In this document: positions 20,961 through 45,404 of the stretch, one piece after another | Numbering within the stretch: the stretch's first letter is position 1 | Layout of the letters: every line of letters begins with the position of its first letter | From: Hydrogenispora sp. | GTDB taxonomy: Bacteria; Bacillota; UBA4882; UBA10575 | Assembly: GCA_012837705.1 (NCBI GenBank) | Contig: DUQQ01000023.1 | Span: 1 to 64,000 of the forward strand | Length of the DNA stretch: 64,000 nucleotides | Direction of reading: 5' to 3' | The notes under the pieces: generated by a model | The model's input: the letters and a program-made list of their open reading frames with translations, nothing else | The model's database searches: none | What the model was told of the DNA's origin: nothing | Position numbers and translations under genes: made by a program

Positions 20961-21091
20961 CGAAGGAAAAAGAGATTTAACAAATATGCAATCATTTATT
21001 TCATTCGGTAGGATAGGTGGTCGACTCACCCAGTTATGATTTAATTTACTTTTTGAAATTAAAGTAGCCAGCGTGAGCGACGACATACAAA

Positions 21092-25876: not shown

Positions 25877-26135
25877 AAATTCCATAATTACTTCGAGGAT
25901 CGGGTGAAGTAGGAACCGGTACCGACGGCAGAGAGCCGGTGGTTGGTGCAAACCGGTGCGGCCGTTTCTGAAGTTACCCCCGGGAGAACGAAAACTTGAA
26001 CCTGCCGACGGCAGCAGTAGGGTTTTCCGGCGTCAGTCGTTAACAAAAAGAGTGGCCATTGCCCTACGGGAATGGCAATTAGGGTGGTACCGCGAGTAAC
26101 CTCTCGTCCCTTCCGGGACGGGAGGTTTTATTTTT
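25877..26135 (+). promoter_or_regulatory. T-box riboswitch controlling tyrS
   Basis: Leader RNA that binds uncharged tRNA and allows read-through into tyrS. The conserved T-box AGGGTGGTACCGCG lies at 26081-26094. It is followed by a terminator (AACCTCTCGTCCC, 26098-26110, with GGGACGGGAGGTT, 26115-26127, then a T-rich run). Stem I features (AGAGAG-type bulge, apical GGTGCAAACC) occur at 25930-25955. A TAC triplet at 25975-25977 could be the Tyr specifier, but I could not verify its position by folding. Confidence 0.92.
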
Positions 26136-31614: not shown

Positions 31615-34626
<3,012 letters not shown>

Positions 34627-45019: not shown

Positions 45020-45079
45020 AAAAGGTGTTAAAAAGCCCAGAACACCTATCTCCTACCGGTTTTTACTTAGAGGAGTAAC

Positions 45080-45300
45080 GGGCCAACAACAGAAGATGTA
45101 GATAGTCATCCACGCTGGCATCAACCAGTGCACGTGAAGTGATCAACATTCAAAGCCAGGTGGGCGACAAAGCCAAAGGCGGACTTAAGTTGGTCATTCG
45201 TAGCGGAGCCTCTGGCACCGCGAGAATGACAGACTGGTATTTTCTTAAGGAGTCGCCCACGGCAGCGAGAACGGTTTCACCAAGTGAATTAATTATTTAA
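45080..45300. ncRNA. Candidate structured RNA or dispersed element in the dipeptidase-GNAT gap
   Basis: No gene is supported in 45020-45404. Nested inverted repeats are centred near 45212. They are GTGGGCGAC (45160-45168) with GTCGCCCAC (45252-45260), CTTAAG (45184-45189) with CTTAAG (45244-45249), GTCATTC (45193-45199) with GAATGAC (45224-45230), and GCGG (45203-45206) with CCGC (45218-45221). A further hairpin, CACGCTGG with CCAG and CGTG, lies at 45111-45136. The order of arms is fully nested. One reading frame stays open from 45106 to a TAA at 45298 but lacks a start codon, so a decayed gene is an alternative. Strand and ends are not known. Confidence 0.5.
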
Positions 45301-45326
45301 ATCAAAATACCGCAAAACCAGCAAAG

Positions 45327-45366
45327 CATCGAAGTAAGGGCCAAAACATTGCAGTAAGCACCAAAG
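45327..45366. repeat. Two imperfect 20-bp tandem repeats
   Basis: CATCGAAGTAAGGGCCAAAA (45327-45346) is followed immediately by CATTGCAGTAAGCACCAAAG (45347-45366), identical at 15 of 20 positions. The role is unknown. Confidence 0.5.
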
Positions 45367-45382
45367 CACGAGTTGTAGTTTA

Positions 45383-45391
45383 TTTGTCGAA
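45383..45391 (+). promoter_or_regulatory. Spo0A box upstream of the GNAT-spo0A pair
   Basis: TTTGTCGAA matches the 0A-box consensus TTTGTCRAA exactly. It overlaps the ribosome binding region of the GNAT gene directly upstream of spo0A. A chance match somewhere in the window is possible, so position carries the argument. Confidence 0.5.
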
Positions 45392-45404
45392 GGAGTGGCT
45401 GTAC

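Follow-up and report, generated by a model that had tools for sequence, protein, structure and literature searches.

The BOX elements of Streptococcus pneumoniae are modular repeats, located between genes, whose inner modules vary in number or type between constant ends; they are thought to be parasitic (Croucher et al. 2011, PMC3049150). The GTAG REPs and REPINs are dispersed, mostly intergenic, imperfect hairpins with GTAG at the foot, arranged in tandem or in clusters (Di Nocera et al. 2013, PMC3733652, a paper that does not mention "Firmicutes"). In the Bacillus cereus group, bcr1 (Okstad et al. 2004, cited in PMC2267715) is described as a repeat of 147-167 bp with the characteristics of a mobile element (PMC2267715). 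Herein, we analyzed a repeat found in a 64,000-nucleotide stretch of Hydrogenispora DNA (the window). Like the broad class of BOX, REP and bcr repeats, it has many dispersed copies, forms intergenic stem-loops and shows empty-site polymorphism, and is best treated as a new family of such dispersed, structured repeats between genes. Among the known systems, it works most like the pneumococcal BOX elements: both are short and modular, with constant ends and stem-loops, and vary in length between sites. This likeness is one of architecture, and no relation in sequence would be expected. BOX elements have terminal inverted repeats similar to ISSpn2, whereas the repeat has none, and no related insertion sequence was found here. 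The features given above for the GTAG REPs and REPINs are shared by the repeat, but it differs from them in being without a RAYT, in its greater length, and in its head-to-tail chains, specific 3' tail and YTAR|GNAG target. The bcr1 repeat is likewise a dispersed structured Firmicutes repeat of about 150 bp, in a different organism. Integron attC sites, with the consensus RYYYAAC/GTTRRRY, are imperfect hairpins with variable inner loops. The hairpins of the repeat are of the same kind, but by inspection the attC consensus does not fit its ends, and the genome to which the window belongs has two tyrosine recombinases, presumably XerC and XerD.

The locus is very probably an old copy, together with a truncated tandem copy, of a non-autonomous, family-specific repeat, one that is probably mobilized in trans. 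The preliminary description had reported four nested pairs of complementary arms, and all four are present: a 9-bp outer pair (GTGGGCGAC at 45160-45168 and GTCGCCCAC at 45252-45260), a CTTAAG pair (45184-45189 and 45244-45249), a 7-bp pair (GTCATTC at 45193-45199 and GAATGAC at 45224-45230) and a core pair (GCGG at 45203-45206 and CCGC at 45218-45221). As a single nested structure they held up in part: the two inner pairs together make up one hairpin of the repeat (hairpin C), but the outer two lie outside the repeat's own design.

The full copy occupies 45102-45247 on the forward strand, as delimited by BLASTN copies and by a match of our covariance model R1 (45101-45247, 141.7 bits). It runs from a 5' tag, ATAG (GTAG in the consensus), through hairpin A, mini-hairpin B and hairpin C to the tail TATTTTCTTA. 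Hairpin A had been overlooked; its 5' arm GTCATCCACGCTGGC (45105-45119) pairs with its 3' arm GCCAGGTGGGCGAC (45155-45168, which includes the left arm of the 9-bp pair) in the family alignment and in the fold of the element alone. The same two sources support mini-hairpin B, GCC-AAA-GGC (45172-45180), whose family form is GCCCCGAAGGC. Hairpin C (45193-45230) has the outer stem GTCATTC/GAATGAC and the inner stem GCGGAGCC/GGCACCGC, and in the structure-annotated alignment the inner stem shows G-C/A-U double changes between copies. The tail (45238-45247; TATTTTCTAR in the family) is the kept copy end in genomes G000, G001, G011 and G012. Immediately after it, on the same strand, lies the truncated copy (AGGAGTCGCCCACGG...AAATCAAA, 45248-45305), recognized by direct reading and by CTAR|GTAGTC tandem junctions elsewhere. 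Its start at about 45248 is the source of the right arm GTCGCCCAC, so that the 9-bp pair is not a stem of its own: it arises from pairing between the 3' arm of hairpin A and the 5' arm of the truncated copy. The CTTAAG pair is incidental and peculiar to the window copy, other copies commonly having ACAGCAGC and TTTTCTAG at these places. One further copy in the window, weak and decayed, was matched on the reverse strand at 20977-21085 (28 bits, E 2e-5).

Compared with dinucleotide shuffles, the region of the arms folded better on both strands, with z values of -2.9 and -2.8. When the element was folded alone, hairpins A, B and C formed, with an MFE of -51 against -39.8 in shuffles (z -3.0). In a wider fold of 45050-45310, the 9-bp pair beats hairpin A, because hairpin A of the window copy has mismatches and thus loses in the tandem context. 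The view that no known RNA family is involved was confirmed at gathering and relaxed thresholds: Rfam 15 gave no covariance-model match at the locus, even at E<=10.

The suggestion that the element might recur across the genome was borne out. BLASTN of 45020-45400 against the own genome of the window returned about 25 copies, mostly 70-84% identical. Model R1 was then based on an alignment of 15 short copies and a structure drawn by hand, since the structure that RNAalifold derived from the raw MAFFT alignment was poor owing to variable loops and decayed copies. With R1 at E<0.01, the own genome contains 42-43 copies of a repeat of about 147 bp. Genomes G001, G005, G006, G007, G011 and G012 contain 36-48 copies each, G002-G004, G008, G013 and G014 contain 1-7, and the family members G009, G010 and G015 gave no R1 match. 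Among 60 relatives searched, the matches were confined to the same bacterial family except for one weak match. In a pattern scan of 84,980 species, all matches came from metagenome genomes of uncultured Bacillota or Clostridia, and R1 confirmed nearly all of them. The plasmid and phage collections contained no match to the repeat; the pattern scan of viral contigs gave a single match (L158), which R1 did not confirm and which is probably due to chance. From these searches, the repeat appears to be essentially specific to one uncharacterized bacterial family.

The spacer between the dipeptidase and GNAT genes, in which the window copy lies, has no element in G001-G003, G007 and others, where it reads natively ...TCTAGG...; in G000, G004, G005 and G006 an element sits at exactly the CTAGG point, that of G006 having a different type of interior. 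We examined 12 further copies of the own genome by searching both flanks in G002-G005 and judging by spacing. Of the 11 sites that could be scored, 10 had no insert in at least two of the copy-poor genomes G002-G004, the spacer being shorter by about the length of the element. At base level, an empty site reads GAGGTAGT|TTCC, and the occupied one reads GAGGTAGT, then the element (CACCC...TTTTCATAGGTAGT), then TTTG. This presence/absence polymorphism with empty sites indicates that the repeat has moved. Some sites are common to G005, G002, G004 or G006, and some are partly deleted in G005, which points to loss as well as gain and leaves the polarity of single sites unproven. Of the alternatives raised in the preliminary description, a mobile or dispersed repeat is thus the one that fits, given the 43 genome copies, the precise empty sites in relatives and the decayed stems here.

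The flanks of the insertions fit YTAR|GNAG, which is also the junction at the element's own ends. At most young sites the R of YTAR is the same on either side, with longer matches at two, but the element ends resemble the target; no clean target-site duplication was established and no autonomous version was found. In many of these targets, a GGAG-like ribosome-binding site comes after a stop codon. Between co-directional gene pairs of the own genome, 18 copies are in the sense and 2 in the antisense orientation, and over all loci tested the ratio is 29:4. Such co-orientation with downstream genes would be expected if the copies served the host as structured RNAs, either small or acting in cis, within 5' leaders and operon spacers. 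However, the motif TARGNAG alone, counted in ordinary co-directional spacers of the window, is itself oriented 10 sense to 1 antisense. Copies therefore follow the direction of the genes because the target is typically the junction of a stop codon and a ribosome-binding site, and a regulatory role is not needed to account for their orientation. Gene co-orientation is often taken as a sign of regulatory RNA, and it can come from target choice alone.

The position of the window copy also speaks for a structured RNA: just 5' of it is a conserved block that contains a sigma-H-like promoter (in relatives, AGGAGTAA...GAATAT), and the copy, judging from the sequence, would form the start of the leader of the GNAT-spo0A operon. 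Against this, the operon is also present in relatives without the element, the orthologous site being empty in most of them; the genes downstream of the copies are unrelated to one another; carriers within the family have anything from 1 to 48 copies; and the stems are weakest in the very genome of the window. We consequently regard a host RNA function as very improbable.

Covariation in hairpin A is the remaining point in favor of such an RNA. Among the copies of the own genome, 11 of 31 pairs had a change on both sides, compared with 5.7 in shuffles (0 of 500 as high), and 17% of the alignment cells were broken. We next located the arms of hairpin A by their outer flanking sequences and compared the pairing of arms within and between copies. 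Arms paired better within than between copies, with a z of -9.2 over 67 arm pairs. By genome, z was -6.2 in G001, -3.2 in G011, -3.4 in G012 and -2.0 in the own genome; compensatory change, proposed earlier as a check on the structure, is thus clear for hairpin A overall but weak in the own genome. This pattern indicates that hairpin A was maintained in those lineages whose copies are younger and that it is eroding in the genome of the window. Such constraint is expected for a DNA hairpin recognized by a recombinase as well as for a functional RNA, and we favor the DNA hairpin because of the empty sites and the unrelated neighbors.

Throughout the family, the elements are 110-400 bp long and keep one order: the GTAG tag, hairpin A (TCGCCCACGCTGGC ... 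GCCAGGTGGGCGA), the mini-hairpin, hairpin C and the tail. In younger copies (G001, G011 and G012), the fixed 5' head comprises about 49 nt (GTAG plus TCGCYCACGCTGGC...) and the fixed 3' tail the last 10 nt or so. The interior between them varies, consisting of one or several homologous hairpins or, in the same three genomes, of unrelated long hairpins, as if the inner modules were exchangeable between a fixed head and tail. L194, L202, L195 and L208 have the same head and tail with a different interior (ACAAAGGC-GTCATTCAACACGAGCGACGAG...TCGAG). Copies joined head to tail at CTAR|GTAGTC are frequent. The two fixed ends (GTAGTCGC... and ...TATTTTCTAR) do not form an inverted repeat with one another, and assignment to the MITEs was rejected on this ground. 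The open frame of about 64 codons noted earlier in the window copy had raised the alternative of a decayed protein gene. No frame is consistently open across copies, since the open frame differs from copy to copy and none spans the whole element in the window copy; moreover, conservation sits in the hairpin arms and ends. A protein-coding origin is therefore barely conceivable.

An imperfect hairpin tagged with GTAG at its foot, an intergenic location and a high copy number all recall the elements of PMC3733652, so that mobilization as a REP/REPIN by a RAYT (Y1, IS200/IS605) transposase had to be considered. Of the 16 family genomes, 14 gave no Y1 (IS200/RAYT) transposase, and among these are six of the seven that are rich in copies. 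The only Y1 matches in the family were in G009 and G012. The IS200-type Y1 gene of G012 (L117, 1501-1821) carries two stop codons, and the ends of the repeat are absent from those of its flanks that were read. In addition, the repeat is 110-400 bp long and ends in a fixed tail that is not palindromic, unlike REPs of 20-40 bp. The GTAG hairpin is thus present without the RAYT, membership of the GTAG REP/RAYT group was rejected, and we consider mobilization by such a transposase very improbable.

The copy-rich genomes lacked genes of the Y2/IS91, IS110 and reverse transcriptase types, the exceptions being isolated or broken ones in G011 and G012. As no such enzyme is shared by the copy-rich genomes, a non-autonomous element of any of these was likewise rejected. 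The sequence between fixed ends in G011 and G012 was searched for a long, autonomous form of the element and proved to hold nothing but ordinary host genes, assembly gaps or unrelated interiors. Xer-like tyrosine recombinases were the sole candidate class common to all genomes, with no clear link to copy number. These searches gave no mobilizing enzyme. The dispersal, the empty sites, the fixed ends, the target motif, the structural constraint in lineages with young copies and the decay here were observed directly; mobilization in trans by a hairpin-recognizing recombinase, the recognition of single-stranded hairpins and the lack of a host role are inferred.

The repeat is probably a new BOX/REP-like structured element that is mobilized in trans and has decayed in the genome of the window. 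A recombinase acting in trans may recognize the folded single-stranded hairpins and the ends, and would join the ends to YTAR|GNAG sites; the element would thus insert in one orientation at sites like its own end junction. The window copy may be transcribed as the 5' leader of the GNAT-spo0A operon, any effect on expression being presumably incidental. More speculatively, and in our view doubtfully, a so far unrecognized single-strand or hairpin recombinase could target stop-codon/ribosome-binding-site junctions (YTAR|GNAG), with the element carrying interchangeable inner modules. With this repeat, whose ends and target are defined, a previously undescribed family is added to an uncultured Bacillota lineage, and the testable question arises of which enzyme moves it when the usual ones are missing.

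A few other features were observed. The block at 45020-45100, 5' of GNAT-spo0A (AAAAGGTGTTAAAAAGCCCAGAACACC...CCGGTTTTTACTTAGAGGAGTAACGGG...GAA), is highly conserved in several genera of the family, more so than the surrounding spacer. It resembles a sigma-H promoter preceded by a palindrome, which is possibly a regulator site. Directly 5' of the GNAT start, TTTGTCGAA (45380-45400) resembles a 0A box, which, if true, would be consistent with autoregulation by Spo0A; not all relatives keep this sequence (for instance, TTTGCAGAA in G003). L105, L117 and L191 (G011/G012) carry another repeat, which is AT-rich, has inverted ends of the GAATTGCATAAT type and sometimes lies beside or around the dispersed hairpin elements; it resembles a MITE family in its own right. 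Rfam matched nothing in the window except two T-box leaders, at 25887-26114 and 31619-31863.
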